Below are positions 458-27,917 of a stretch of 32,010 bases of DNA, in pieces. The stretch is from a virus. The stretch spans positions 1-32,010 of the IMG/VR virus record IMGVR_UViG_3300043294_000133. One strand, written 5' to 3'. The first letter of the stretch is position 1; each line of letters starts with the position of its first letter. The notes under the pieces are model-generated. The model was given only the letters and a program-made list of their open reading frames with translations, made no database searches and was not told the DNA's origin. The translations under genes were made by a program, and so were the position numbers.

Positions 458-957
458 CAGGAACTCGGCGGCGTGGGGGGACTGGTCGGAATCGACTCGC
501 GCACCACCGTCATCTCCACGGCTTGCCCTTCGGCGATCAGGTCACCGGGCGTGTGCTGCCGGAGGACGACGCGCGTGCGGAACCACGTTCCTCGCGGCGC
601 GAAGCGGCCCACCTCCGCGCCCCCAACGATGAGCGGCACGCTGAGTCCGAAGTGGTAGGGAATGCTGTAGCGCGTTGCCGCAGCGGGAAACTCGATGACC
701 TGCGTCTCCAGCTCGGTATCGAAGGCCGTGCCGTTCGGCTGCTGGCCGGAGATGATGGGCGTGATCTCGACCGTGCCCCCGGCATCCCCGGTGATCGTGA
801 GGAAGAGGCCAGGGAAGATGGCCTCGCCGCCGATCCCAGGACCCGCAGGCACCGTCTCCAGTCGGGCGAGCACGGGCTTGCCGTCATCGTCCACGCCCTG
901 ATCGGCCAGCAGCAGGCGGGCACCGCCCGATTCGCCGAGAAAGAGGCCGGTCAACAT
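457..957 (-). CDS. Putative phage structural protein, 166 aa
   Basis: The ATG at 957 overlaps the end of the HNH gene by 7 bp. The protein is rich in Val, Gly, Thr and Ile in alternating patterns (FLTITGDAGGTVEITPII, GTWFRTRVVLRQ), indicating a beta-sandwich, and ends in a Pro/Ser tail. There are no Cys residues, signal peptide or membrane segments. It lies between the large nozzle-like protein and the fibre-like gene, so it is probably a minor tail or adaptor component. I do not recognise a specific family. Confidence 0.7.
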   Translation of the reverse strand: MLTGLFLGESGGARLLLADQGVDDDGKPVLARLETVPAGPGIGGEAIFPGLFLTITGDAGGTVEITPIISGQQPNGTAFDTELETQVIEFPAAATRYSIPYHFGLSVPLIVGGAEVGRFAPRGTWFRTRVVLRQHTPGDLIAEGQAVEMTVVRESIPTSPPTPPSS

Positions 958-1364
958 GGGCGCCTACGTGTGAATGTCCTGATCGCGTGACAGTTGGCAC
1001 AGACGAGGTCACACTTCTCAATCTCGGACAGGAGGCGGCTCATAGAAACCTGTCCCCGAGAGACCTGAGAAGATATCACGAACTCCTTTTTGCCCCGCAC
1101 ATGATCGTACTGCATTACGTAGGGTGGGTATTGAATCCCACAGTCGGCACAGGGCTTGCCCGTCTTGAGCGATGCCGCGAAGGCCCTCATCTTGTTCCTG
1201 TGGGCGATGGTTTTTGCCGTCTCATAACCAGGGTGCAGCTCACGGTGGTGCCGTACCGAAGCGCGATGGCAGATGCGACATAGACGCCTGCCGGTTTTCG
1301 TCAGTACGAGGTTTTTCCCAGAGTATGGGTGGCCGCGCGGACAGTGCGTTTTCTTCACGCGCAT
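951..1364 (-). CDS. Free-standing HNH endonuclease, 137 aa
   Basis: The N-terminus carries a Cys-rich zinc module (HCPRGHPYSGKN, then CRICHRA). The C-terminus has the HNH core: CADCG, a YDHVRG segment supplying the first catalytic His, and CDLVCANCHAIRTFTRRR with the closing CxxCH. This is the layout of small phage HNH nucleases that cut DNA in a metal-dependent way and often act as homing endonucleases. The gene overlaps the upstream structural gene by 10 bp and the downstream one by 7 bp. Its DNA is visibly more AT-rich than its neighbours, consistent with recent arrival. Domain call is secure; homing is inferred. Confidence 0.85.
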   Translation of the reverse strand: MRVKKTHCPRGHPYSGKNLVLTKTGRRLCRICHRASVRHHRELHPGYETAKTIAHRNKMRAFAASLKTGKPCADCGIQYPPYVMQYDHVRGKKEFVISSQVSRGQVSMSRLLSEIEKCDLVCANCHAIRTFTRRRPC

Positions 1365-6343: not shown

Positions 6344-7036
6344 CTAGCCTGGCGTGACAGGGGAAAGCACGGGACTGACGGTGCGCCGCACGGCGGCGAT
6401 GCGCCGCCGCTCGTCCGCGTCCGGGTGCATCAGGAAGTCGGTGAAGAGCTTCATCCACGCCTGCTCGTCGGCCTGAAGCGCCTGCATCTCGTCCGTGCGT
6501 CCGTCTTTCTGCGCGAGGTAGGCCGCGATCTGCACGATCAAGAGCGTGTCGTAGGTCTCTGGCCACTGGCTGTCCAGTGGGCTCGTGAAGCTCGTGGGAT
6601 CGGTCGGCACGCGACTGAAGAAGAAGCGCAGCGTACCGCCCGTCGGGTCCAAGGGGTTGCCGGCCGGGAAGTACTTCTGCCCCAGCGCGTAGATGCAGGG
6701 CTCGCCCTGCTCGGCCTGGCGGTCATCGTAGTTGACCTTGACGACCTTGGTGTGGTTCCCGGCTGAGTCGATGTGCTCCTGGCGGAAGACCGTGATCGCC
6801 GTTGCGGGTCGTGGCCATCCCGCCACTTCGCCATCGGGATCACTCGTGAAGTCCACGTCCTGGAAGCCCGCGAAGAAGACCGGGTTGACCGTGGCAGCGT
6901 AGGTGTAGAGCGCCCGCTGGAGTCGCGCGACGAGATGTGTCAACTCGCTCTGGAAGCCCGTCGTGACGAGAACGTCTGGAACATTTCGGGACGAGTACCC
7001 ATACGCCGCGACGACGAGGTCCTGGACCGTGCTCAC
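6344..7036 (-). CDS. Neck/tail adaptor-like protein, 230 aa
   Basis: I chose the GTG at 7036 because GGAGG lies four bases upstream and the codon shares a base with the preceding TAG. That start also gives VSTVQDLVVAAYGY, which aligns with the downstream paralogue. The protein has an early helical region (SELTHLVARLQRALYTYAATVNPVFFAGFQDVDF), a beta-rich middle and a helical C-terminus (YDTLLIVQIAAYLAQKDGRTDEMQAL) that matches the position of the conserved helix in its paralogue. Probable connector or tail-completion protein. The longer upstream frame extension runs antisense-like through the neighbour and is not supported. Confidence 0.65.
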   Translation of the reverse strand: MSTVQDLVVAAYGYSSRNVPDVLVTTGFQSELTHLVARLQRALYTYAATVNPVFFAGFQDVDFTSDPDGEVAGWPRPATAITVFRQEHIDSAGNHTKVVKVNYDDRQAEQGEPCIYALGQKYFPAGNPLDPTGGTLRFFFSRVPTDPTSFTSPLDSQWPETYDTLLIVQIAAYLAQKDGRTDEMQALQADEQAWMKLFTDFLMHPDADERRRIAAVRRTVSPVLSPVTPG

Positions 7037-7422
7037 TAGACCTCCTGGGCCGGCGCGAGTTCGCCGAGCATCTGTTCCGCCTCCGCGGTCGCGCGCTCCA
7101 GCGTGTAGCCCTCGAACTCCGACTCGCCTGCCTCTGCCCGAGCTTTCGCTTCGCGCAGCACGAAGGCCGCCAGCCGATCCCGCGTCTCCAGCGACACCCT
7201 CTCGGCCACCGCCTGCACCTGCTCCGCATCGCTCTTCGCGCGGGCGAAGCTCGTGGGGGCGCGCGCCCCACCCGTCTCCGGTGTGCCGTAGACGGAGAGG
7301 CGTTCGGCCGCAGCTCGTCGTCCCCGTTCCCCGATCCACAAGCCGATACCCAGCGTGCCCGCGACCGGCCCGAGCCAGGCGAACACCAGCAGCAGGATGA
7401 AGAGGCCGACGGGGATGGTCAT
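7036..7422 (-). CDS. Small membrane protein with one N-terminal helix, 128 aa
   Basis: The ATG at 7422 overlaps the upstream stop (ATGA). Residues about 3-29 (IPVGLFILLLVFAWLGPV, then AGTLGIGLWIG) form one long or two short membrane helices. A charged helical domain with coiled-coil character follows (AEQVQAVAERVSLETRD, LREAKARAEAGESEFEG). The predicted product is anchored in the inner membrane with a cytoplasmic tail. In phages such proteins near tail genes include holins, spanins and chaperones, but length and topology fit none clearly, and no lysin gene is adjacent. Confidence 0.65.
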   Translation of the reverse strand: MTIPVGLFILLLVFAWLGPVAGTLGIGLWIGERGRRAAAERLSVYGTPETGGARAPTSFARAKSDAEQVQAVAERVSLETRDRLAAFVLREAKARAEAGESEFEGYTLERATAEAEQMLGELAPAQEV

Positions 7423-7847: not shown

Positions 7848-9419
7848 CTAGATGGGCCGCGCCTTCTTCCCCAGCCGGAAGCCGCCACCGATGGGCTCCG
7901 GCCCCATGACCGGCTGCCGGAGTTCGTGCGCCTGGATGGCGCGAGCTTCCCGTTGCGCTGCGTGGGCGCGAATCAGCGCGGGGTCCACGAACGCCCGGTC
8001 GGGTGCGACCGTCAGTACCTCGCCCTGGACGACCTGCCACATCCGGCTCGGATGCCCTGCCGCAGCCCGGTAGCGGGCGAGCAGATCGCGATTGGCGCGC
8101 GTCAAGGACATCGCGCCCAGCTCGCGCTTGCGCTCCGGGTGCCACAGGTGCAGCAGGCCGTACTTGAGGCGACGGTGCGGCCCGACCAGCGTGTCCAGCA
8201 CCAGGGCCAGGCACTCGTCTTCCGAGCCCCAGCCGACGAACTGCGGCGGGATACCGCCCGTCGCCAGGTAGGCGGCCCTTGAGACCACGACGCAGCCACC
8301 GCCCGCGAAGCCGCGGTAGGCGGGCCGCGCGAGCCCCAAGGTCGGCGTCGGGAGCGTCACCGTGGGCGCCTCGGCCAGCAGCTCGCCCGTCGTCTCCTGA
8401 TTGATGCGTCGGACCAGCGTGTGCGGCACCACCCACGGCGCCTGCCCGGACTCGACCAGTCGGACAGCTTCGAGGAACGCTTCGGGCGGGAGCGCGCAGT
8501 CCGCATCAAGGAGTACGAGCGTCCGGCCGCTCGCGTGCGTGAGTGCGTTGGCGACCGCCGCGCCCTTGCGCCACGGTGCCCCCGTCCAGCCTTCCACGAG
8601 CTGCCAGTCGGGGAACTGCGCTGCGAGCCGCCGCTTGAGCCATCCCCAGGCGACGGACCGCTCTGGCTGGTCGCCGTGCATCCGGGGGACGATGACCGTC
8701 ACCCCACGATCCCCGCGCTGCGCGGCCTGCAACTGGTACTCGGTGAGCGCGCGGGTGAAGTCGCTCGCGAGTCGGCGCACGTTGAAGACGCTATCGGCGT
8801 GCTGGCGGTAGAGGAAGCCGGGCCGCGCGGTGGCGACGAAGCGTGCTCCCTGCCGCGCGAAGTCGCGCCAGAGCGAGGTGTCCCATCCGCCCCGCTGGTC
8901 CTGCCGGTAGGGGGTGCGTTCCCAGAAGACGCGCCGGAAGGGGGAGACGCCGGAGCAGGGCGTGGGGTTCTCAAGCGCCGCCTTCCCGGCCGTGGACTTG
9001 TAGAGCTTCTCCCGCTGCGCCGGCCCGGCTCGGAGATCACCCATCCTGCGGTAGCCCAAGGCGATGACATCCGCCTCCGCCATCGCTCCAGCCACATCCT
9101 CCAGCATCGTCGGCAGGGCGAGGTCGTCCGCATCGAGATGCTGGACCCATTCAGTGTCCGCGAGGGCCACGGCGGCGTTGCGCAGCACGCCGAGGTTCGT
9201 CTCGCCCGGCAGCGAGCGGGTGAGCACCCGCAGTCCCGCCGCTTCGAGCATCGTCGTCGCGGCGGCGACCGCTCGCACGTCCTCGGGGTCGCCACCGTCC
9301 ACGATGCCGACCATCGCCGGCCGCAGCGTGAGGGCGACGAGTGATGCCCCCCAGTCGGCCAAATAGCGGCCGTAGCCACGCACACAGGTCACGATGGCGA
9401 GGTCGAGCGGTTCGCTCAC
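7848..9419 (-). CDS. Tandem-domain GT-A glycosyltransferase, 523 aa
   Basis: Two family-2-like glycosyltransferase domains lie in one chain. Domain 1 (residues ~5-235) has LAIVTCVRGYGRYL at the nucleotide-binding strand, NLGVLRNAAVALADTEWV, and the metal-binding LDADD at 95-99. Domain 2 (~240-450) has VTVIVPRMHG, KGAAVANALTHASGRT, LDADC at 304-308, and GWGSEDE near 397-402, whose acidic pair is typical of the catalytic-base position. Such enzymes transfer sugars from nucleotide-sugars. The gene overlaps the adjacent methyltransferase by 4 bp and sits between small genes and tail genes, suggesting glycan building on virion proteins or host surface. Acceptor and sugar cannot be told. Confidence 0.85.
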   Translation of the reverse strand: MSEPLDLAIVTCVRGYGRYLADWGASLVALTLRPAMVGIVDGGDPEDVRAVAAATTMLEAAGLRVLTRSLPGETNLGVLRNAAVALADTEWVQHLDADDLALPTMLEDVAGAMAEADVIALGYRRMGDLRAGPAQREKLYKSTAGKAALENPTPCSGVSPFRRVFWERTPYRQDQRGGWDTSLWRDFARQGARFVATARPGFLYRQHADSVFNVRRLASDFTRALTEYQLQAAQRGDRGVTVIVPRMHGDQPERSVAWGWLKRRLAAQFPDWQLVEGWTGAPWRKGAAVANALTHASGRTLVLLDADCALPPEAFLEAVRLVESGQAPWVVPHTLVRRINQETTGELLAEAPTVTLPTPTLGLARPAYRGFAGGGCVVVSRAAYLATGGIPPQFVGWGSEDECLALVLDTLVGPHRRLKYGLLHLWHPERKRELGAMSLTRANRDLLARYRAAAGHPSRMWQVVQGEVLTVAPDRAFVDPALIRAHAAQREARAIQAHELRQPVMGPEPIGGGFRLGKKARPI

Positions 9420-10036
9420 GGCAGGTCCGCCACGCGCCAGAGCCCGAGCGCCTTGTCGGCGTAGGCCCCACCGTTCTCCGTGCAGCCCTCCACGAGGACT
9501 CGTTGGGGCATCGGGAAACAGAAGGGAGGTTGCTGGAGGTTGAGGGGCCGCCAGCGACCCATCACCCCCTCCACGTTCCGCGCACGGCCGGGGAAGGTCG
9601 TGGTCAGGAGCCAGGTGATCGAGCTGCGCTTGATGTTGGCGAGCGCGCGATGAGCGTCAGCGAAGGGGAAGTGGACGAGACAGTCCCGGCACAGCAGGAG
9701 GTCGGCCGCAGGGAGCGGATCGGTAAGCAGGTCCAGGTGGCGGAACACCCGACCTTCACACCCGTAGTCCCGCTGGTTGGCAGCGATCATCTCTGGCACG
9801 ATGTCGCCCCCGATGTACTGCATCCCCGTGAGGTCCACGGTGCGCATCCAGTGGAAGTCGCCGCACGGCAGATCGAGCAGCGTCCGCACGCCGAGGCTGC
9901 GGAGCACCATCGGGAGCTGGGTCACCAGCGTCCGCGTCTGCTCCACACTCGAGCCCGGCCCCGACGCCGACTCCGTGCCGCCGAACCGCGAGCCCCGATA
10001 GATGTCGCCGAAGATGCGGGCCGCCTCACTTCGCAC
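9416..10036 (-). CDS. Class I SAM-dependent methyltransferase, 206 aa
   Basis: A GTG at 10036, six bases after GGAGGG, gives the start VRSEAARIFGDIYRG and overlaps the upstream gene by 11 bp. SAM-binding motif I is LDLPCGDF at 54-61, the acidic loop follows as GGDIV at 76-80, and LLLCRDCLVHFP matches the post-motif strand ending in the usual hydrophobic/His region. There is no DNA-methylase DPPY motif. Flanked by two glycosyltransferases, it most likely methylates a sugar or small glycan (O- or N-methylation), which commonly caps glycans; this is inference from context. Confidence 0.8.
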   Translation of the reverse strand: MRSEAARIFGDIYRGSRFGGTESASGPGSSVEQTRTLVTQLPMVLRSLGVRTLLDLPCGDFHWMRTVDLTGMQYIGGDIVPEMIAANQRDYGCEGRVFRHLDLLTDPLPAADLLLCRDCLVHFPFADAHRALANIKRSSITWLLTTTFPGRARNVEGVMGRWRPLNLQQPPFCFPMPQRVLVEGCTENGGAYADKALGLWRVADLP

Positions 10037-11486
10037 TGAAGACCCTCCAGCCGTGTTCCTGCGCCCAAGGCACGACGATGGCGTTCGCGCGCTTCCAGTC
10101 ATCGGCCTTCTCCGCCTTCCACGTCGCCGGATCCTCAGGCTTGTTCTGGTCTAGGATCCAGCCTTTCGGGTGCGGCGCCGCCCAGATGGGGATGCCTCGC
10201 TCTTGTGCCCACCGGGAAACCAGCGCCTCCTCGTCGTACTGGAAGTCGAAGTGCGCCGGCACGCCGAGCCGGGTATCCCACCCCATCACGCCCGAGCCCG
10301 GGTAGTTGATCCACCGGCCCTCGTTGAGCGGCAGGAAGAAGCCCACCACCGGTCCGACGATCTCGTTGACGTGCCGCGCCCGCGGGGCCACCACGCGACC
10401 GTGGAAGGTCACGATCGCCTGGCCTTTCCAGCGCCGCACCCACCGGCGCACCACCGCCTCGTAGTCAGGCGGGTAGACGATGTCGTCGTCGCAGGTCAGA
10501 TAGAGTCCGCCGTAGGTCTCGCTCCAGCGGAACTTCGCGCCCGCTCGGTCATCGTTCCCCGGCACACAGACCCACTCGTCGCCCAACTCCTTCACGATGT
10601 CGGGCGGCTCCGTGTAGCCGTTCAAGACCACGTGCAGCTTGGTGACCTGGGGACGGAGCGAGCGCAGCGTCCGCTCCAGCTTGGCGAGCCGCTCGGGCTG
10701 TGTGGCGATGGCCGCCAGTGTGCGCGGCCGAGCGACCTGCACCGCTGGGCCGTGGGGCAGCGGCGGCAACTTCGGTGGCGTGATGCCGTACTTCTTGTAG
10801 AACAGGGCGGCGTTCTCGCGCCGGTAGGGTTCCCAGCCCGCGGGACCGCCGTAGACGGCGTCGAACGTCGTGCGGTGGTGATGCAGGATCTCCACATCCC
10901 GACGCCGGGCGAGCTGCCAGCCAGCGGCTTGCGCACGTCGGCTGTAGTCGTCGTCATCCCCGAAGCCCATGCGGAACTCTTCCGAGAGATATCCTACCGT
11001 CACCAGGACTTCACGCCTGATAAGGACACAGAAGAACGGCAGCATACTCTTGTCTTTGAGCACGACGTAGCCTGGGCCGGGCTGCTCGCTGCGCGCTGCA
11101 TGGTCGGCAGGCGAGGACGAGCGCACGCCGACGAGTCCAACCTTCGGCTTCTCGTGCATCACGTCGAGCATCCGATCCAGCCAGTGCGGCACGACCTCTG
11201 TATCGTTGTTCAACAAAAGGATGAACGGCGCGGTGGACGCCGCGATACCCACGTTCGACGCCTTCACGAATCCGGTGTTCTCTTCGAGCGCCAGTGCGAG
11301 GTGCCGCAGGCCGGTCTCGGCGAACGCCTTCTCCACCGCGCTCCGCTCCTCTGGGGCGCTCCCGTTGTCTACCCAGATCACCCGAATGAGTGCGCGGTCG
11401 GTGTGCGCCGCCAGCGAGCGCAAACACGCGACAGTCATCGCACACTGGTTGAACGTGGGCAGAACGATGTCTACGATCGCCGTCAC
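10026..11486 (-). CDS. Two-domain glycosyltransferase (GT2 N-domain plus second GT-A domain), 486 aa
   Basis: The GTG at 11486 overlaps the preceding stop (GTGA). Residues 1-235 form a GT2 rhamnosyltransferase-like domain: IVLPTFNQ, VDNGS at 39-43, NTGFVKASNVG, the metal site NNDTEV at 93-98, GFGDDDDYSRRAQAAGW, and a late HHH. Residues ~255-486 form a second GT-A-like domain with TLAAIATQPERLAKLERTL at the start and CDDDIVYP at 332-335 as its metal site. The double-domain design parallels the gene at 7848-9419. It probably works with that enzyme and the SAM methyltransferase on a shared glycan. Confidence 0.85.
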   Translation of the reverse strand: MTAIVDIVLPTFNQCAMTVACLRSLAAHTDRALIRVIWVDNGSAPEERSAVEKAFAETGLRHLALALEENTGFVKASNVGIAASTAPFILLLNNDTEVVPHWLDRMLDVMHEKPKVGLVGVRSSSPADHAARSEQPGPGYVVLKDKSMLPFFCVLIRREVLVTVGYLSEEFRMGFGDDDDYSRRAQAAGWQLARRRDVEILHHHRTTFDAVYGGPAGWEPYRRENAALFYKKYGITPPKLPPLPHGPAVQVARPRTLAAIATQPERLAKLERTLRSLRPQVTKLHVVLNGYTEPPDIVKELGDEWVCVPGNDDRAGAKFRWSETYGGLYLTCDDDIVYPPDYEAVVRRWVRRWKGQAIVTFHGRVVAPRARHVNEIVGPVVGFFLPLNEGRWINYPGSGVMGWDTRLGVPAHFDFQYDEEALVSRWAQERGIPIWAAPHPKGWILDQNKPEDPATWKAEKADDWKRANAIVVPWAQEHGWRVFSAK

Positions 11487-11725
11487 CGGGGATTCGCTGG
11501 CTGGCCGAAGCAGTCGTGGTCCGCGTCGGGGAACGTCTCGCTCAGATCACGGGCGAGTGCTTCGGCACCGAACGGCCCCACGGCCTTCTGGGCGAAGCGG
11601 AGGAGGTCGGGGTCCACCCCAGGCTTGACGGGCCGTGGCGGCGCTCCGAACGTCCGCGCCCAGTTCTCTTCGAGCTGGGCGTCACTCACGAACTGCGGCC
11701 GGCGCTCGGAGCCCTTGCCGGTCAT
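11483..11725 (-). CDS. Hypothetical small protein, 80 aa
   Basis: The ATG at 11725 overlaps the previous stop (ATGA), which decides the start over a longer frame. It contains SDAQLEENWARTFG and DPDLLRFAQKAVGPFG, two amphipathic helices joined by a Pro-rich linker. No recognisable domain. It directly precedes the two-domain glycosyltransferase with a 4-base overlap. Confidence 0.6.
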   Translation of the reverse strand: MTGKGSERRPQFVSDAQLEENWARTFGAPPRPVKPGVDPDLLRFAQKAVGPFGAEALARDLSETFPDADHDCFGQPANPR

Positions 11726-11907
11726 CCGAAGTACATCCGGTCCATTTCCGCTTCGACCTTCTCGGTCAGATACCGCTCCATGAAGCGGCGTATCCGGCGA
11801 CGCTGCGGCGACAGGTCCTTGAGCCACACGATGAATCCTTTCGGCCGCAGTCGCACGAGTGGTCCCCGTTGGGCGAGGCTGACACTGTAGTCCGACTGTC
11901 TGCTCAC
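11722..11907 (-). CDS. Hypothetical basic small protein, 61 aa
   Basis: GTG at 11907 and its stop are both in 4-base overlaps with neighbours. The sequence is strongly basic (RGPLVRLRPKGFIVWLKD, LSPQRRRIRRFMERYL) with an acidic C-terminal helix ending in MDRMYFG. It may bind nucleic acid or a partner protein. No family recognised. Confidence 0.55.
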   Translation of the reverse strand: MSRQSDYSVSLAQRGPLVRLRPKGFIVWLKDLSPQRRRIRRFMERYLTEKVEAEMDRMYFG

Positions 11908-12164
11908 TCCGTTTCCTCCTCGCTGAGCAGGTCCCGGATGTCCGCCAGGATGTTCGCCAGCTCGTTCAGCTTGAAGGTGATGATCGCCTCGCCCAACGAA
12001 ATGCCGTGCTCCGCGACGATGGGGTAGACATCGCGCCGGAAGTCATCCACGAAGGCGTGCCAACTGCGCAGCCCTTCGGTGTCGAGCAGGGGCTCGGCGG
12101 GCCACTCCTTGGGCTTGAAGTCGAAGGGCAGACCCGAGGGCACGTCGGATGTCCCGGCGCTCAC
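11904..12164 (-). CDS. Hypothetical acidic protein, 86 aa
   Basis: GTG start at 12164, coupled by 4-base overlaps on both sides. The N-terminus is Pro-rich (PSGLPFDFKPKEWPAEPLL). The C-terminal half is helical and acidic (VAEHGISLGEAIITFKLN, ELANILADIRDLLSEEETE). It resembles small tail-assembly or scaffold-like proteins in composition only; role unknown. Confidence 0.6.
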   Translation of the reverse strand: MSAGTSDVPSGLPFDFKPKEWPAEPLLDTEGLRSWHAFVDDFRRDVYPIVAEHGISLGEAIITFKLNELANILADIRDLLSEEETE

Positions 12165-12382
12165 GGGCGCTTCTCGTGGCTGATTTCGAGCAGTCGCTTC
12201 ACAGACTCCTCGCCCAGCTCGCCGTCTTGGGCGGCGAAATACGCGATGATCCGTAGGGCTGGTCGCACGCCGCCGAGCCGCAGCGTGACCTCCCGCTGGA
12301 GGGCGTCAAGATTCCTCGGTCGGACGGCATACGAGTTTCCGTAGCGGTCCTGAATGGTTTCCATCAGATCGGGCACACTCAC
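12161..12382 (-). CDS. Hypothetical protein, 73 aa
   Basis: The GTG at 12382 overlaps the upstream stop (GTGA) and is preferred over a longer frame. The sequence begins VSVPDLMETIQDRYGNSY and continues with helices (LDALQREVTLRLGG, RIIAYFAAQDGELGEES). An internal ATG at METIQDRYG is an alternative start. Function unknown. Confidence 0.6.
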   Translation of the reverse strand: MSVPDLMETIQDRYGNSYAVRPRNLDALQREVTLRLGGVRPALRIIAYFAAQDGELGEESVKRLLEISHEKRP

Positions 12383-12609
12383 GGGAGCCTTCCGATTTGC
12401 AGCACGATCTGGTTCACGAGATGGGAGATGCCGCCCTGGTTCACCGCTTCGTTGGCGACGCGCCAGGTGACGGCTCCCAGACGGCCTTCGGGAGAGCGCA
12501 GGTGCAGGCACCCCATCCGGTAGTTGGGGTGGGCGGCAACCTTCCAGCGCGGACCCAATCGGCTCGCCAACATCTCGGTTACGCTGTCCGATCCGCGAAC
12601 GATTCTCAC
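12379..12609 (-). CDS. Hypothetical protein, 76 aa
   Basis: GTG start at 12609, coupled at both ends. It has a compact alpha/beta look: SRLGPRWKVAAHPNYRMG, LHLRSPEGRLGAVTWRV, then VNQGGISHLVNQIVLQIG. There is a single Cys and no metal motif. Function unknown. Confidence 0.6.
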   Translation of the reverse strand: MRIVRGSDSVTEMLASRLGPRWKVAAHPNYRMGCLHLRSPEGRLGAVTWRVANEAVNQGGISHLVNQIVLQIGRLP

Positions 12610-12824
12610 ACCGCCTCCCGTGCGGCCCGATCCGCCGCCTCGATCGCGTCCGTCATCCGGCGCCGCGGCGCCTCACACGGCGAGCTGCACGACCGCGCGC
12701 GTTCGAGCGCCTGCACATCGGTGTCGAACGGCCCGCAGGTGTAGCGCGTGCCCGCCACGCGACAGGTCGCCCACCAGTGGCCCTGGCGGTCCTGCTCCGC
12801 CCAGCCGAAGCGGTCCTGGCTCAT
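12606..12824 (-). CDS. Small Cys-containing protein, 72 aa
   Basis: The ATG at 12824 overlaps the upstream stop (ATGA). The N-terminal part is a beta-hairpin-like DRQGHWWATCRVAGTRYTC followed by GPFDTDVQALERARSC and CEAPRRRM. Four Cys are spread without a clear CxxC pair. It reads like a small wHTH or AP2-type beta domain, but I cannot assign it. Confidence 0.55.
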   Translation of the reverse strand: MSQDRFGWAEQDRQGHWWATCRVAGTRYTCGPFDTDVQALERARSCSSPCEAPRRRMTDAIEAADRAAREAV

Positions 12825-14283: not shown

Positions 14284-14528
14284 GGGATCACGCCGAAGAG
14301 GACAGCGCAGGAGCGGTGGAGTTTGAGATACCGGACCGGATCATCGCGGCGCGGATCGTCCTTCGTACCGTAGGTTACTGGGTCGCCGACGTCTGCCGTG
14401 ACCACCACCGGCTCCTCGGGCTCGATGACCACACCGCACGCGGAGCAGGCGTTCCCGTAGATCGGCACGGGGGAGTCGTACCGCGGCCCCTTGAGCACCG
14501 TGCGGTCGAGGATGCGCTGGCGGCTCAT
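14280..14528 (-). CDS. Small zinc-finger-like protein, 82 aa
   Basis: The ATG at 14528 overlaps the upstream stop (ATGA), preferred over an in-frame ATG 15 bases earlier. CSACGVVIEPEEPVVVTAD forms a CxxC knuckle, and LKLHRSCAVLFG supplies a His and a Cys that could complete a zinc site. It resembles PARP- or HNH-like zinc-ribbon fragments, but no catalytic residues are visible. Confidence 0.65.
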   Translation of the reverse strand: MSRQRILDRTVLKGPRYDSPVPIYGNACSACGVVIEPEEPVVVTADVGDPVTYGTKDDPRRDDPVRYLKLHRSCAVLFGVIP

Positions 14529-14878
14529 CGCTTGAGTCTCCACTTCACTACCTTGGTCGCGGGAGTGCGCTTCGTGGACTTTCGCGGTGTTGGCGCCGGC
14601 TCCTTCGGCTCCTCGGGAATCTTCGGGCGAGCGGGAAGCACCGTGAAGTCGAGGCTCTTGGCCGGCGCCTTCTTTCGCTTCTCCTTCGGCTGCGGGGCTT
14701 CCCGGGGTCGCCTGGGTGAGCCCGTACCCCAGAGCAGCCCCATGTCCGTCGTCGCCCCACAGGCCAAGCAGCGCGCGCGGAGGCTGTCGCCCTGCTTCAC
14801 CATGACCAGCTCACCGCCGCAGGAGGGGCAGGGCCGCAGCATCGGCGCAGGACGGAGACCCGTGCCAGCGTAGCCCAT
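14525..14878 (-). CDS. Zinc-ribbon protein with basic disordered tail, 117 aa
   Basis: The N-terminal 45 residues form a classic zinc ribbon: CPSCGGELVMVKQGDSLRAR followed by CLACGA. A long Lys/Pro/Arg-rich tail follows (EAPQPKEKRKKAPAKS to KVVKWRLKR), likely disordered and able to contact nucleic acid. The start at 14878 lies three bases after the upstream TGA. No catalytic domain, so a DNA- or protein-binding role is inferred. Confidence 0.65.
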   Translation of the reverse strand: MGYAGTGLRPAPMLRPCPSCGGELVMVKQGDSLRARCLACGATTDMGLLWGTGSPRRPREAPQPKEKRKKAPAKSLDFTVLPARPKIPEEPKEPAPTPRKSTKRTPATKVVKWRLKR

Positions 14879-14881
14879 CGC

Positions 14882-15718
14882 TCAGACCCCCTCGATCATG
14901 AACTTATCCCGGAGCGGCAGGTAGGGCTTGATGCGCCGGCCCTCCTCCTCCTGAATCCTCAGCGCCTCTTTCGACCAGCAGTGAAAGAGCGGGTCGGGCA
15001 GGTGCGCGATGCGGCCCGGGCTCGCGACTTCTCCCCACCAGCAGGCGAGCAGGAGCGCACGCAGGAGGTCGTCGCCTTGGCCCGCCTCCGGACGGTAGCG
15101 GTCGCGGCCCGAGGGCAGGGCGTCCACGCCCAAGGCCGTGATTTGCGCGGTCAGCTCCGCCTGGTGCTCCACGTCCTCGGGGAAACCCAGGTCAAGCCGG
15201 TCGGCCCGCTGCAGGTTGTGGAAGTTCTCCACGAGGTCGGCTTCGGGCACCCGCCAGCCTTCGGGGTCTTGCACCGTGCGCTCGCCACCCGTCTCAAGCG
15301 TGAGCACGGGCAATGTGGGCTCGGCGCGGGTCAGGAGCTGCACGGTGAGCCGCCCCAGCCCGTCCCGGTCGGCGACGATCATCCCCAGCCCGAGGCGGAC
15401 GTGGTACTCCTCATGCCGGATGAGCGGCTTCCAGCGCGTGACGGCCAAGACGCGATCCGCGATGTCAGGGAACGGGGCACCAGCTGGCCAGCGCTCGAGG
15501 TAGCGCAAAACGTGCCGCAGCGGCGTCTCGGCCGAGCGCTCGGTGATCGCTAGGGCAGAGGACTCTCGCGGGCCACCGACCATCAGACCAATCACGAACG
15601 CTTCGGCGATGACGGCCCGTGGGCCGCTCGGAGTCTCAGGCGGGGCGGACGGACGCTCGGGTGCGCGGTACTCCGCGCCGGCCGTGCGGGGGCCGAGGCG
15701 GAGCGGGATGTCAGTCAC
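14882..15718 (-). CDS. Hypothetical protein, 278 aa
   Basis: This is the largest gene between terminase and the glycosyltransferases. The GTG at 15718 is in a 4-base overlap. It has a Pro-rich start, then alpha/beta regions (PRAVIAEAFVIGLMVGG, IRHEEYHVRLGLGMIVAD, GLGRLTVQLLTRAEPTLPV) and a helical C-terminus (DDLLRALLLACWWGEVASP, FHCWSKEALRIQEEEGRR). No portal, protease or capsid signature is visible although the location after TerL would suit one. Function unknown. Confidence 0.65.
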   Translation of the reverse strand: MTDIPLRLGPRTAGAEYRAPERPSAPPETPSGPRAVIAEAFVIGLMVGGPRESSALAITERSAETPLRHVLRYLERWPAGAPFPDIADRVLAVTRWKPLIRHEEYHVRLGLGMIVADRDGLGRLTVQLLTRAEPTLPVLTLETGGERTVQDPEGWRVPEADLVENFHNLQRADRLDLGFPEDVEHQAELTAQITALGVDALPSGRDRYRPEAGQGDDLLRALLLACWWGEVASPGRIAHLPDPLFHCWSKEALRIQEEEGRRIKPYLPLRDKFMIEGV

Positions 15719-16273: not shown

Positions 16274-16641
16274 GGGTCCGCGCGCCGCACGATGGCTTGG
16301 CCGTACCGGGTGAAGAGTTCAGCGACCCAGCGGCGATAGCCGATTTCCAGAAAGAAGTATGCACGGCCGCCCATGTCTGACTGCTTGGCATCCACAAATC
16401 CTATCCTCCATGTTGGCGCTCCGAGGCCCCAGCCGATGAAGCACTCACCCGCCGGCTTGCCTGCCGCAGCGTTCAACCAGAGCGAGTTGGGGAGCGCGCG
16501 GTAGAGCCATGCGATCCACGTTGGCGCGACCCAGTAGCGTGCTAACTCGTAATCCTGCCGGACGACGCGCAGGTGTCGGCCCAGAGGGCGGCGATAGCCA
16601 GAGATCATCAACGGCCACCGCTCAACCGTGAGAGCCTTCAC
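16270..16641 (-). CDS. Hypothetical protein, 123 aa, following terminase
   Basis: GTG at 16641 overlaps the terminase stop. The sequence is rich in Trp, Tyr and Arg (VAPTWIAWLYRALPNSLW, YFFLEIGYRRWVAELF). DNA is less GC-rich than flanking genes, hinting at separate origin. No membrane segment is long enough to be confident. Role unknown. Confidence 0.6.
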   Translation of the reverse strand: MKALTVERWPLMISGYRRPLGRHLRVVRQDYELARYWVAPTWIAWLYRALPNSLWLNAAAGKPAGECFIGWGLGAPTWRIGFVDAKQSDMGGRAYFFLEIGYRRWVAELFTRYGQAIVRRADP

Positions 16642-17927
16642 GTTGCCTCCGTCGCCAGCGAGCGGACGTGCCGGCGGGGTGGGGCGGGCGCCTGCAGCGC
16701 GGCCGTGCGCGCGCGAATCATCGGTTCTAGAGCGTAGCGGGTACTATCGACCAGATGCTCGTTGCCCGGCTTGAGCACCGGCAGGACATCCCCCGACCGC
16801 TCGTCCACCTTGTACGAATAGGTGCGGGCCTCCGCGATCCAGTTCTTACACCGCGGATGCACCACGATGCGGCGATAACTGCGCAGATGGGCAATCCCGT
16901 CCTCCACCGAGCCCGACCCTTTCGCGGCCCCGATGATGCGCGGCAGGCCGTGGCGTCGAAGATAGTCAATCGAGTCCGGCCGCGAGCTGTCGGCCCGGAT
17001 GACGTACTGCTCGCAGCCCGGCATCGCCTCGGTGCAGGCCGCCACCGTCTGGTCCAGCCCGAGCCCGACGCGATAGACCTCATCCTGGATGTGCAGCTCG
17101 TCCTCGGCGACGTAGCACTTCACCATCGCGAACGGGTCCTCGGCGAAGCCGAAGTCGGCGCCGAAATATGGGCCGCTCCACGACTCCTGGGGATCCACGG
17201 CTTCGATGACCCACTTGCCATGCAGGACCTGGGCGGCCGACGACTTCCGCAGCTCGCCGCCCCAGACGTGAGCGGCCGACTCGGGGTCCACGCTCTCCAG
17301 GTACTCCATCTCCTTCCGCAGCGCATCGGGAAACCACTTGTTATCGCGCCAGCCGACCTTGCGGGAGACGCACCCCGGCGGCTTGGTCAGGACGAACCGG
17401 CGGTAGGTGGCGTCCGTCTCCAAGTTGGTGTTCCACGTCAGGATGATCTGGGAGCCGGGCTTGCGGATCGTCGGAATCAACAGCTTGTAGGACGCCTCGG
17501 GCACCATCTCCGCCTCTTCCACCCACGCGACGTCAATGCCCTCCAGCGACTTCACGCTTTCGGGATGGTGGCGGAGCCCCAGGAAGACGAATGTGCTGCC
17601 GTTGTCGTGGCGAATCTCCCGGTCGGTGACCACGAAGCCAGGGAGGTTCAACAGCGCGATCTGGTCCCGGAGGAGCTGATGCACGCTGTCTTTGAGGCTC
17701 TGCTGGAACTCCCGTGTGCACAGGACGCGCATCGGCTGGTCGCCGGCCCGAAGCAGGAGCACCCGAGCGACCGACCACGACCGGCCAGCCCCACGGCCGC
17801 CCCAGAGGCTGATGTAACGATGAGGCTCGAAGAGCACCTTGGCGTACTTGGGGAGCCACGCCTCGACGTCCAGGATCGTCTCAGCCGCACGGGGCGGCTC
17901 AGGCGAAGTGGACGGTGACTCGGGCAT
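16638..17927 (-). CDS. terL: Terminase large subunit (PBSX family), 429 aa
   Basis: This ATP-driven DNA packaging motor with nuclease activity is complete and of normal length. The ATPase domain has Walker A GGRGAGRS at 43-50, Walker B and catalytic Glu IDVAWVEEAE at 131-140, and the coupling motif LTWNTN near 163-168. The RNase-H-like nuclease domain has D258 in GADFGF, D313 in RADSS and D394 in HLVDSTRYAL, the three expected acidic residues. It overlaps the small-terminase-like gene by 29 bp. Family: Terminase_3/PBSX-like, which includes both cos and headful packagers. The downstream neighbour is a small unknown gene rather than the usual portal. Confidence 0.95.
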   Translation of the reverse strand: MPESPSTSPEPPRAAETILDVEAWLPKYAKVLFEPHRYISLWGGRGAGRSWSVARVLLLRAGDQPMRVLCTREFQQSLKDSVHQLLRDQIALLNLPGFVVTDREIRHDNGSTFVFLGLRHHPESVKSLEGIDVAWVEEAEMVPEASYKLLIPTIRKPGSQIILTWNTNLETDATYRRFVLTKPPGCVSRKVGWRDNKWFPDALRKEMEYLESVDPESAAHVWGGELRKSSAAQVLHGKWVIEAVDPQESWSGPYFGADFGFAEDPFAMVKCYVAEDELHIQDEVYRVGLGLDQTVAACTEAMPGCEQYVIRADSSRPDSIDYLRRHGLPRIIGAAKGSGSVEDGIAHLRSYRRIVVHPRCKNWIAEARTYSYKVDERSGDVLPVLKPGNEHLVDSTRYALEPMIRARTAALQAPAPPRRHVRSLATEAT

Positions 17928-25289: not shown

Positions 25290-25648
25290 GCCGACCGTCG
25301 CTTCCGGCGCTCAATCTTGTCGAGCAGGTGGGGATGCCGCGCCACGAGGTCATCCGCGATGAGGGCCGTCCACCTGTTATCAATCTCGGCGTGCAGATGG
25401 TCGGCGCGGCGCGCCTGCTCGGCCAAGTACTTCGCGCTGATGCGCAGCTCGCCGCGGGCCGCGAGATCCAGCGCCGTGGCCTCCATGTACCGCCAGGCCC
25501 GCCAGCCGTCGTCGCTGCCCTTCCAGGCCGCGTAGCGGGTGCGCACCGTCTCCTTGGGGCCGAACTTGCCGACATCCGTGGTGGGGCCGCTGGGGGGCTC
25601 AGGCGGCTCCGTGAAGAGATCGTAGTCGGGACGGACGGGGGCGCTCAC
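25286..25648 (-). CDS. Hypothetical protein, 120 aa
   Basis: The GTG at 25648 overlaps the methyltransferase stop (GTGA), which selects it over a longer frame. After a Pro-rich N-terminus (YDLFTEPPEPPSGPTT) it is helical: RTRYAAWKGSDDGWRAWRY, ATALDLAARGELRISAKYL, DLVARHPHLLDKIERRKRR. It resembles small phage HTH-like proteins found next to replication genes, but no assignment is possible. Confidence 0.6.
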   Translation of the reverse strand: MSAPVRPDYDLFTEPPEPPSGPTTDVGKFGPKETVRTRYAAWKGSDDGWRAWRYMEATALDLAARGELRISAKYLAEQARRADHLHAEIDNRWTALIADDLVARHPHLLDKIERRKRRSA

Positions 25649-27588
25649 GGGGTCTCCCAGAGCGAGCGTTGCTGGCGGGCGTGGGCGATCCTCTTGCGGG
25701 CGATCTCGACGTACTCCGCCTCGCGCTCGATGCCGAGGAAGTCGAAGCCTTCCAGCGCGCAGGCGATGCCTGTGGTGCCGCTGCCTGTGAACGGATCCAA
25801 GACCAGGCCGCCAGCCGGTGTCACGAGCCGCACGAGCCAGCGCATCAGCGCCACGGGCTTGACGGTCGGGTGGTGGTTGCGCGCGGCGCGGTGCGTGTTC
25901 GGGGATTGGAACGAGCCGGGGTTCTGGGTGCCCGCGCTCCACAGCATCGGCGACTCCGGCCCGCTCAGCCCCGCCTCGCGTTCGGCGCGGGACGCCTTCG
26001 CGCAGTAGAAGAACCGCGAGGCCCCGCCGACGTCGAGCCCGCGCGCCGGTTCGCACTCGCGCTGGCCCGCGAAGTCACCGTAGGTCGTCGCGAACTTGTT
26101 GGAACCGCGTCGTTCTGGATTCGCCCCACTCACCAGCGTACCGCTCTGTGCATCGAGCGCGGCAGCGGCTTCTTCGTCCAGCACGACGTTCGCGGGCCAG
26201 CGACCGAGCGGCGACACACGGTCTGCGACGGTGCCCGGTTCGTTGTCGGGAACCTGCGAGCGCCTATCGTGTGGCTTCGCGTCGCGCCCACTCGCCAGCC
26301 AGCCGGGACCACGCCCCGGCTCGTTCGCGTAGTCAGCCGGAATCCGGCACCCATCCACGTTGAGCGCGCCCGTCCCGTGCGCCGCGACGTTCGCCGCTAC
26401 CGTGTCCACCAGCGGCTTGCGGGCCAGAATGATAGGCTCCCACGCGGGCTTGAGCGCCGTACCTAGGCCGCGAGGGATACGCGGTTTGCCGCACCGACCA
26501 CAAACCGGCCATGCTCCGCGAGTTTGTGGCTCCGGTTGTCCGGCCACAATTCGAGGTTCCCCCGCTCGTTGTTCAGTGGGGCGTGGTCGCGGTGATGGAC
26601 TACCTCCGTCCTGAGTAGCGGTCGGCCGACCCACTCGGCCATCACCAGACGGTGCTCCATCACGTAGCCGTCCTTCCGAGCCATCGTGATCGCCCAGAGG
26701 GGACACCGAACGTACCGGACGATCTGATAGTTGCCTCTGCGGTGCCGGTAGGTGACGCCGCCCTTCCACGCCGGGTTGCGTTCCCCTCGCATCTTCGCTC
26801 GGTAACTGGCGAGGCTCTCCGCCGTCCAGGCCGCGCGCCCCTTGTGAGAGTGCGGTGTCAGCCCCTTGATCCGCCGCTTCCCGTTGCAACTCCTTGAGCA
26901 GGTCGGCTCCTTCACGCGGCGCAGGGTCCGCGGGGCCGTCTGGAACGGCACTCCGCACTCGGCGCACCGAATCGTCACAGGCACAGAAGTCTCCGGTCTT
27001 GTCGAGATTGTGGCTCTTGGGAAACCCGCTGCCGTACATGAACATCAGGCAGTCGCGGATCTCCCAGCCAGCGTCCTCGATGCCCGCAGCCAGCCGGTGA
27101 ACGGTCCTTGTGCCACCGAATGCCAGCAGATGCGCGCCTGGCTTCGCCACGCGCAACGCTTCTGCGGCCCACGCCCGATGCCACTCCTGCATTGCCGGGA
27201 GGTGTCGCTTCACGCGCTCGAAAGACGGCTTGCCGCCGTCCGCGAAGCCACCGATGTTGCCAGGCTTCGGCACAGCGGAAGCCCGGAGCGACCGCCCCTT
27301 CACATACCAGTCGGGAGCGGGACACTCGCACTTCTTCTTGCCACGCAGCCGCCCACCGCACGTCTTGCAGGTGGGGTTGTATCCCTCGAACTCGTCGCCG
27401 GAAATGTTGGGCCACGAGGTTGAGCGCTCACCGATCCCTGGCTTCGAGAAGCCACCGTCGAGCCGGTCCCAGTCGCGTCCCATAAACTCCAGTCCGTAGG
27501 GTGGGTCGCACACGACGGCGCTCACGCTGTCCGCTTCCATGCCGCGCATCACGTCAAGGCAGTCGCCGGGCACGACATCGCTCCTCAT
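25645..27588 (-). CDS. Phage DNA methyltransferase (beta class), 647 aa, carrying an HNH-bearing insertion
   Basis: The ATG at 27588 overlaps the upstream stop (ATGA). The target-site motif DPPY is at residues 28-31 and the SAM site DPFTGSGTTG at 598-607. This IV-before-I order marks a beta-class N4-cytosine or N6-adenine methylase, as in antirestriction phage enzymes. Conserved text includes FGGTRTVHRLAAGIEDAGWE, FMYGSGFPKSHNL, GTALKPAWEPIILARKPL and NHHPTVKPVALMRWL. Between residues ~205 and ~360 the frame reads low-complexity Pro/Arg/Gly/Asp text, which is the alternate-frame shadow of a nested HNH gene. Cys202-x-Cys204 and Cys363-x-x-Cys366 flank it and may have been one zinc loop. Whether the interrupted enzyme still folds is unknown. 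Confidence 0.85.
   Translation of the reverse strand: MRSDVVPGDCLDVMRGMEADSVSAVVCDPPYGLEFMGRDWDRLDGGFSKPGIGERSTSWPNISGDEFEGYNPTCKTCGGRLRGKKKCECPAPDWYVKGRSLRASAVPKPGNIGGFADGGKPSFERVKRHLPAMQEWHRAWAAEALRVAKPGAHLLAFGGTRTVHRLAAGIEDAGWEIRDCLMFMYGSGFPKSHNLDKTGDFCACDDSVRRVRSAVPDGPADPAPREGADLLKELQREAADQGADTALSQGARGLDGGEPRQLPSEDARGTQPGVEGRRHLPAPQRQLSDRPVRSVSPLGDHDGSEGRLRDGAPSGDGRVGRPTATQDGGSPSPRPRPTEQRAGEPRIVAGQPEPQTRGAWPVCGRCGKPRIPRGLGTALKPAWEPIILARKPLVDTVAANVAAHGTGALNVDGCRIPADYANEPGRGPGWLASGRDAKPHDRRSQVPDNEPGTVADRVSPLGRWPANVVLDEEAAAALDAQSGTLVSGANPERRGSNKFATTYGDFAGQRECEPARGLDVGGASRFFYCAKASRAEREAGLSGPESPMLWSAGTQNPGSFQSPNTHRAARNHHPTVKPVALMRWLVRLVTPAGGLVLDPFTGSGTTGIACALEGFDFLGIEREAEYVEIARKRIAHARQQRSLWETP
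26463..26984 (-). CDS. HNH endonuclease nested in the methyltransferase gene, 173 aa
   Basis: GTG at 26984 is preceded by GGAGA six bases away. The N-terminal zinc finger is CAECGVPFQTAPRTLRRV with CSRSCNGKR. The nuclease core is GYVMEHRLVMAEWVGRPLL, EVVHHRDHAPLNNERGNLEL and a closing HKLAEHGRFVV, with the HH pair, Asn and Glu of the HNH_3 type. The frame is +1 relative to the methyltransferase, and the gene is exactly 522 bases including its stop, so the host frame stays open. This is best read as a homing-type endonuclease inserted in a host gene without an intron or intein. Confidence 0.85.
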   Translation of the reverse strand: MPVTIRCAECGVPFQTAPRTLRRVKEPTCSRSCNGKRRIKGLTPHSHKGRAAWTAESLASYRAKMRGERNPAWKGGVTYRHRRGNYQIVRYVRCPLWAITMARKDGYVMEHRLVMAEWVGRPLLRTEVVHHRDHAPLNNERGNLELWPDNRSHKLAEHGRFVVGAANRVSLAA

Positions 27589-27917
27589 CGTCCCTCGAAT
27601 GCCCGTGACCGCAGGTGGGCGGCACAATGCGCGTGAAGCGCCAGCGGCTCTTTGCCTGCCTCTACCAGCGCTCGGCACTTCGCGCACACTCCCTCCACCG
27701 CTGAGGGCTCCAGCTCCACCGGAGGCCCCTGGCGCTCGGGCAGGATCGCCGCCCGCTTGGTGATGAAGAAGGGCCGCATCCCCGCCGTGCCTTCGGGTTT
27801 GCCGCGATGCCCACCCTCATGGGCTGGCCCGGCAGAGGGTCGGTGACCAGCCCCGCTCGAGGGTGTTCCTTTCGCCGCGAGGGCCGCGGCGCGTTCCATC
27901 GGGTGTTTCGTTCTCAC
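27585..27917 (-). CDS. Small Cys/His protein, 110 aa
   Basis: GTG at 27917; the upstream gene's tail supplies AGGA eight bases before. The N-terminal half is low complexity (Gly/Pro/Ala/His), so an internal ATG at MRPFFITKRAAILPERQG may be the real start. The C-terminus VCAKCRALVEAG with HAHCAAHLRSRAFE suggests a CxxC...HxxC zinc site. It is coupled to the methyltransferase (ATGA). Function unknown. Confidence 0.55.
   Translation of the reverse strand: MRTKHPMERAAALAAKGTPSSGAGHRPSAGPAHEGGHRGKPEGTAGMRPFFITKRAAILPERQGPPVELEPSAVEGVCAKCRALVEAGKEPLALHAHCAAHLRSRAFEGR

Follow-up and report, generated by a model that had tools for sequence, protein, structure and literature searches.

The stretch analysed here (the window) consists of the 32,010 bases of virus record IMG/VR IMGVR_UViG_3300043294_000133, a fragment of a phage genome. 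Its minus strand carries a cassette of three genes, two of which (A and B) encode double-domain glycosyltransferases (GTs), and the one between them (MT) a class I S-adenosylmethionine (SAM) methyltransferase (Table 1). The three open reading frames (ORFs) described in a first-pass annotation made from the letters alone (7848-9419, 9416-10102 and 10026-11486, all on the minus strand) proved to be genuine: they have clear homologues and a coding-type composition, with a third-position GC of 0.88 for A, 0.85 for MT and 0.85 for B. The genes do overlap, as had been stated, but the 77-base overlap of MT with B is an artefact of taking the longest ORF. The GTG at 10036 is likely a better start for MT, since GGAGG (a Shine-Dalgarno sequence) lies seven bases upstream and the first 31 residues of the long form fall outside the match of MT to phrog_3382 (E = 2e-46). 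With this start MT and B overlap by 11 bases; A and MT overlap by 4 bases, and so do B and the gene that precedes it (11483-11827). Because of these short overlaps, the minus-strand run from the 11483-11827 gene through B, MT and A looks translationally coupled.

Each GT gene encodes two GT-A-like domains, in agreement with the first-pass annotation, which had also assigned every domain a metal motif of its own; this is correct for A1, A2 and B2, which have DXD or DDD, whereas B1 has only a looser NND. In profile searches A1 matched phrog_9549 (E = 7e-41) and A2 matched phrog_1721 (E = 6e-10), the latter domain also exceeding the cut-off of PF02709 (24.9 versus 23 bits). A1 is 40% identical to Thibault gp14, and its predicted fold resembles that of RmlT (Z 19.0, root-mean-square deviation (rmsd) 2.6, 189 residues). 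The best Foldseek match of the A model (mean predicted local distance difference test score (pLDDT) 74.4, alignment of 6 sequences) was the Escherichia coli K4 chondroitin polymerase, likewise an enzyme with two GT-A domains; however, the identity is 14% and A2 carries a GT7-like WGSED.

The N-terminal domain of B, B1, matched PF00535 (E = 2e-19) and gave a fold match with Z 17.4 (171 residues, rmsd 2.8). The B2 domain matched no Pfam or PHROG family, but a phmmer search of the PDB sequences linked it to Pasteurella multocida heparosan synthase 2 (E = 3e-21 for the chain) and to KfiA of E. coli K5 (E = 5e-9), and its fold superimposes on KfiA with Z 23.6 and rmsd 3.3 over 195 residues. Aligned with these N-acetylglucosamine (GlcNAc) transferases, B2 retains the DDD-I-x-YP block, the HG pair, the G-S/T-G block and the conserved lysine. 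Sequence similarity, fold similarity and the intact DDD together place B2 in this enzyme type, which we take to be CAZy family GT45. The GT2-GT45 domain order of B is also that of heparosan synthase 2, and the whole B model (mean pLDDT 75.5, alignment of 16 sequences) fits this enzyme with Z 26.2 over 382 residues, but with an rmsd of 18. The likeness has limits: B1 is not detectably a glucuronic acid (GlcA) transferase, its sequence match to the GlcA-transferase domain of heparosan synthase being weak (10 bits, E = 2.1); identities in the structure alignments are 22-24%; and heparosan synthase and KfiA belong to capsule loci, whereas B lies in a phage head/tail operon. The structure prediction proposed in the first-pass annotation was carried out in this way, and the models of A and B agree with the family assignments for the single domains. 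As the rmsd in two-domain fits of both proteins is near 18-20, the single domains are supported and the domain arrangement is not established; in the fold-match lists, the absence of a family does not exclude that family.

MT scored over the cut-off of PF08241, a generic class I methyltransferase model. It matched generic class I models and no DNA-methylase model, in line with the earlier remark that it lacks DNA-methylase motifs. Members of the MT family are fused to GT domains in other viral contigs, as MT-GT2 in L005, MT-HtrL_YibB-GT2 in L009 and L010, GT34-MT in L017 and A2-MT in L164, L167 and L169. These fusions support an enzymatic link between MT and the GTs, and are the best evidence that MT may act on the glycan or on an acceptor that it shares with the GTs.

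Table 1. Coordinates of the cassette genes, their domains and neighbouring genes in the window
Feature	Position	Strand	Description
Gene A	7848-9419	-	523 amino acids (aa), two-domain glycosyltransferase
Gene MT	9416-10036	-	206 aa from GTG at 10036, class I SAM methyltransferase (longest ORF 9416-10102)
Gene B	10026-11486	-	486 aa, GT2 + GT45-like glycosyltransferase
Domain A1	8736-9419	-	GT2/GT-A, phrog_9549, DADD at residues 96-99
Domain A2	7851-8735	-	GT7/galactosyltransferase-like, phrog_1721, PF02709, DAD at residues 305-307 and WGSED
Domain B1	10782-11486	-	GT2/GT-A, PF00535, NND at residues 93-95
Domain B2	10029-10718	-	KfiA/heparosan synthase GlcNAc-transferase-like (GT45), DDD at residues 333-335
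Terminase large subunit (TerL)	16638-17927	-	upstream of cassette; PF04466 (E = 1e-33), phrog_3717
Head-tail adaptor-like gene	6344-7339	-	downstream of cassette; PF24175 SU10_adaptor (E = 8e-6, just under cut-off); true start probably near 7039
phrog_27743 gene	14882-15718	-	also in the syntenic relative, where it adjoins an A1-type GT

Relatives of the cassette enzymes in other phages

The first-pass annotation had suggested a search for the same trio beside the tail genes of other phages. The exact trio was not recovered, but parts of the cassette were found inside the head operons of other phages. Scans for close relatives returned no locus for A, three for B (all through B1 only) and thirteen for MT, with the trio in none; alignments reached further. 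Full-length homologues of A are encoded in six viral contigs (L113-L118); five of them were aligned (36-50% identity), that of L113 being 50% identical over 507 aa. All six have a capsid gene upstream in the same orientation; an adaptor-type gene is found after A in L113 and L114, but before it in L115-L118. In several unrelated phages, homologous cassettes adjoin capsid, protease, portal or adaptor genes: the order is TerL (of the window's type), portal, protease, capsid, full-length A, head-tail adaptor and neck in L113; protease, capsid, MT, GT and GT45 in L074 (of which L077, L079 and L095 are near-copies); and portal, head morphogenesis, A1-like, GT45, protease, capsid and adaptor in L089. 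The A2-MT fusions of L164, L167 and L169 directly follow the capsid gene.

No tblastn match to the GT45-like domain turned up among 50,697 phage records at E values up to 1, and the GT45 profile matched none of the 19 phage proteins searched with it. Relatives are nevertheless encoded in 137 viral-contig stretches, of which 80 were kept (67 distinct proteins), and occur in bacterial genomes as well. From the 80 we picked 40 records by eye, dropping near-copies and many of the weakest matches; some near-copies remain. A terminase match was present in 18 of these 40 and a GT2 match in 26, some of the latter perhaps falling on the GT45 domain itself; several of the GT45 proteins are fusions that also contain GT2, GT4 or FkbM-type methyltransferase domains. 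The MT family phrog_3382 was found in only one of the 40 (three further contigs resembling that one were added later), so that MT and GT45 do not regularly occur together. The nearest relative of B2, 37% identical, is that of L027, and the two group together in the tree (0.998); deeper nodes are weak, and no origin of the domain is read from them. The presence of DDD at 78 of the 80 loci is circular, as the search pattern contained DDD, and ORFs lacking it were left out of the tree and the motif table; the lysine and the HG pair lie outside the pattern. A search of a limited literature collection for KfiA and heparosan synthase together with phages returned no paper.

Glycosylation of virions by phage enzymes has been reported for mycobacteriophages; the capsid and tail tube proteins are modified, according to passages in PMC11600133, PMC12363180 and PMC11256854 that cite Freeman et al. 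2023. In cluster J phages, 8-10 genes between the capsid and the head-tail connector include GTs and SAM methyltransferases, with a two-domain GT in Omega (PMC3706429, in the sections on these genes), and for cluster O the corresponding part of PMC4351075 places O-methyltransferase and GT genes between portal and protease and suggests capsid modification. PMC8402811, which in the portion available deals with host lipid-linked glycans on a cystovirus, was considered and rejected as a precedent.

Like the cassettes of clusters J and O, that of the window consists of adjacent GT-A glycosyltransferases and a class I methyltransferase encoded on the same strand, and A1, A2 and MT, but not B2, are homologous to proteins of these cassettes or of related phages. 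The A1 profile matched Tweety gp104 (Cheoctovirus) with 217 bits, the A2 profile YungJamal gp38 (species Corndogvirus corndog) with 213 bits and the MT profile Ariel gp17 with 147 bits; neither Tweety nor YungJamal was itself studied in the cited work, but both are related to phages that were. Judged by these profile matches, the A1 and A2 families are those of Cheoctovirus and Corndogvirus, two groups reported to have glycosylated virions. The cassettes of cluster J (Omegavirus; Thibault gp11-gp19, Omega gp16-gp17) share with ours the GTs and SAM methyltransferase in a head operon, and Omega gp16 is a two-domain GT like A and B. In contrast, Thibault has separate single-domain GT genes, the Thibault and Ariel proteins searched with the profile showed no GT45 domain, and the window's cassette sits between terminase and adaptor in another phage lineage. 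The O-methyltransferase-GT-GT-GT cassette of cluster O (Corndogvirus) likewise combines a methyltransferase with GTs in a head operon, and its relation to ours runs through A2 and YungJamal gp38; however, its O-methyltransferase is unrelated to MT by profile, its GTs have single domains and it is inserted between portal and protease.

Target and product of the cassette

We consider the cassette most likely to be a module with which the phage glycosylates its own virions. That the virion is the target, as the first-pass annotation had suggested, is well supported by sequence comparison, both by the homologues in head operons and by the two domain families from phage groups reported to be glycosylated. 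The location agrees: along transcription, recombination genes, a DNA methylase, the terminase and small genes precede B, MT and A, which are followed by the adaptor-like gene and a block syntenic with the phage contig G052 (described below). The cassette therefore does lie between packaging and tail blocks, as the first-pass annotation had it, with TerL upstream and the adaptor-like gene and tail-side genes downstream. By profile and phmmer searches, a head or neck gene was present within 6 kb at 12 of 25 A1 loci, 36 of 80 GT45 loci and 13 of 48 A2 loci (49 were fetched, one having no profile hit). In a random-placement test on the 40 GT45 records picked by eye, GT45 lay within 3 kb of the capsid gene in 8 of the 9 records having both (3.9 expected, P = 0.003) and near the portal gene in 9 of 13 (4.6 expected, P = 0.007).

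Several observations weigh against a virion target. The proximity counts are not independent, because the structural-gene probes were drawn in part from the loci being counted and because several of the contigs are near-copies. GT45 genes showed no enrichment around TerL (7 of 18 within 5 kb, 6.4 expected), and none of the 13 loci fetched by MT itself was near a head gene. The window's cassette lies about 5 kb from TerL, and no capsid or portal gene was recognised in this fragment, so the enzymes are not beside their presumed substrate. The exact A-MT-B trio was found at no other locus, the A1-type GT of Tweety is located at the genome end, far from the head genes, and no glycan has been seen so far on virions of this lineage.

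An unlikely alternative is that the enzymes modify the bacterial surface, altering the receptor or capsule of the infected cell against superinfection or recapture of progeny. Phage glycosyltransferases that change the serotype of the host are established, B resembles the capsule enzymes heparosan synthase and KfiA, and the bacterial relatives of B2 would fit. However, A, MT and B all lack a transmembrane-like segment (the highest Kyte-Doolittle mean over 19 residues is 1.53), neither a flippase nor a polyprenyl-phosphate transferase was identified beside the cassette, and in many phages the module is found among late head and tail genes, not with lysogeny genes. The lack of anything membrane-bound next to the enzymes and the head-operon context make this alternative less likely than a virion target.

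It is similarly doubtful that the double-domain enzymes are polymerases which build a long glycosaminoglycan-like chain on the particle and that methylation terminates it. The domain order that B shares with heparosan synthase 2 and the Foldseek match of A to the chondroitin polymerase point in this direction, and the passage of PMC3706429 on Omega gp16 likens that protein to chondroitin synthase. On the other side stand the weak match of B1 to the GlcA-transferase domain and the poor two-domain fits. In addition, two-domain GTs that add single sugars are common. Even less credible is a transfer of sugars to hydroxylated bases in the phage DNA: DNA glycosyltransferases are known from phages (Pyle et al. 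2024, as cited elsewhere) and this phage has a DNA methylase, but close relatives of A adjoin capsid and adaptor genes, and no base-hydroxylating enzyme was found, neither a thymidylate-synthase-type gene in the window or G052 (the control was positive in 9 of 14 genomes) nor a TET/JBP match (the search control was empty), an absence that is weak as the record is a fragment.

If the cassette serves virion glycosylation, A, MT and B would be produced jointly, at the same late stage as the products of the head and tail genes. The four GT-A domains would work in the cytosol, drawing on host nucleotide sugars and attaching several sugars one after another to hydroxyls in an exposed region of a virion protein, the likeliest acceptor being the major capsid protein or some other protein of the head. 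One of the sugars would probably be an alpha-linked GlcNAc, contributed by the GT45-like domain, and MT would then methylate a hydroxyl of the sugar rather than the protein. The benefit may be, for example, shielding from binding to host surfaces or from defence. The target of the glycan, its sugars and its short, defined and capped nature, the last as proposed in the first-pass annotation, are what we infer; because B is like polymerising glycosaminoglycan synthases, a longer chain is possible.

The kind of system, a virion glycosylation cassette, is known; new are the GT2-GT45 double-domain enzyme, the trio and the spread of its families in uncultured phages. Machinery of the same kind appears within the head operons of numerous uncultured phages and includes GT45, a type of GlcNAc transferase that went undetected in the isolate records searched. 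What has looked like a peculiarity of one group of hosts would thus become a general feature of phage heads that can be tested, with a defined set of enzymes, a predicted sugar and a predicted substrate region, and would bear on how particles escape sticking, defence or antibodies. A bolder proposal, which we regard as a long shot, is that the heads of many uncultured phages bear chains which contain GlcNAc, are methylated and resemble glycosaminoglycans, and which are made by phage heparosan/chondroitin-synthase-type enzymes from the head operon; such particles would in effect be proteoglycans.

Genomic surroundings and the related contig G052

G052 is a 60-kb phage contig that was reached through a relative of the window's 710-aa gene. 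The identities are 66% for the 710-aa gene, 69% for a 235-aa gene, 47% for the adaptor (in L109) and 60% for a 166-aa gene. In G052 the terminase is followed by a phrog_27743 gene (38% identical to that of the window), an A1-type GT (42%), a PIG-L deacetylase, another GT2 and then the same connector genes. Since G052 thus holds different sugar genes at the same site before the same connector genes, the cassette site is, judged from this comparison, a variable sugar island in the window/G052 lineage. PIG-L-type deacetylase genes lie near A-type GTs at L115:2393-3196, L116:2393-3196 and L109:999-1733, consistent with the presence of GlcNAc in the glycan. Next to the A1-type GT of G052 is a 251-aa gene (L112:15644-16399) that by eye looks like a SAM methyltransferase and has no family match of weight. 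A second sugar gene of this contig, a Methyltransf_24 domain fused to GT group 1 (L109:16628-18325), directly precedes a 755-aa gene with a weak SU10-portal match. The G052 copy of phrog_27743 (L112:13874-14644; DDLVVALALA, TGVGRA) resembles by eye a stand-alone RNase H-type nuclease domain of a terminase.

No homologue of the window's terminase was found in G052, whose terminase (L112:11507-13039) belongs to another family (PF03237/PF17289 versus PF04466). As the tail-side genes are 60-69% identical despite this difference, the packaging module appears to have been exchanged. Between the terminase and the cassette of the window, where minus-strand ORFs do not exceed 278 aa, no portal or capsid gene was found, and searches with the downstream 469-aa and 710-aa genes, by tblastn against phages and by sequence against the PDB, were uninformative. 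The 710-aa and 166-aa genes are separated in the window by an HNH endonuclease gene (951-1364, minus strand; phrog_2255, E = 6e-23), whereas their counterparts in G052 overlap directly (L109:10016-12109 and 12100-12612), so the HNH gene looks like a homing-endonuclease insertion. The DNA methylase of the window (25645-27687, minus strand, 680 aa) is an ordinary N6/N4 enzyme that matches in two separated halves, and the gene at 14525-14878 on the same strand has a weak match to a Lar-like restriction alleviation protein (phrog_599, E = 1e-4).

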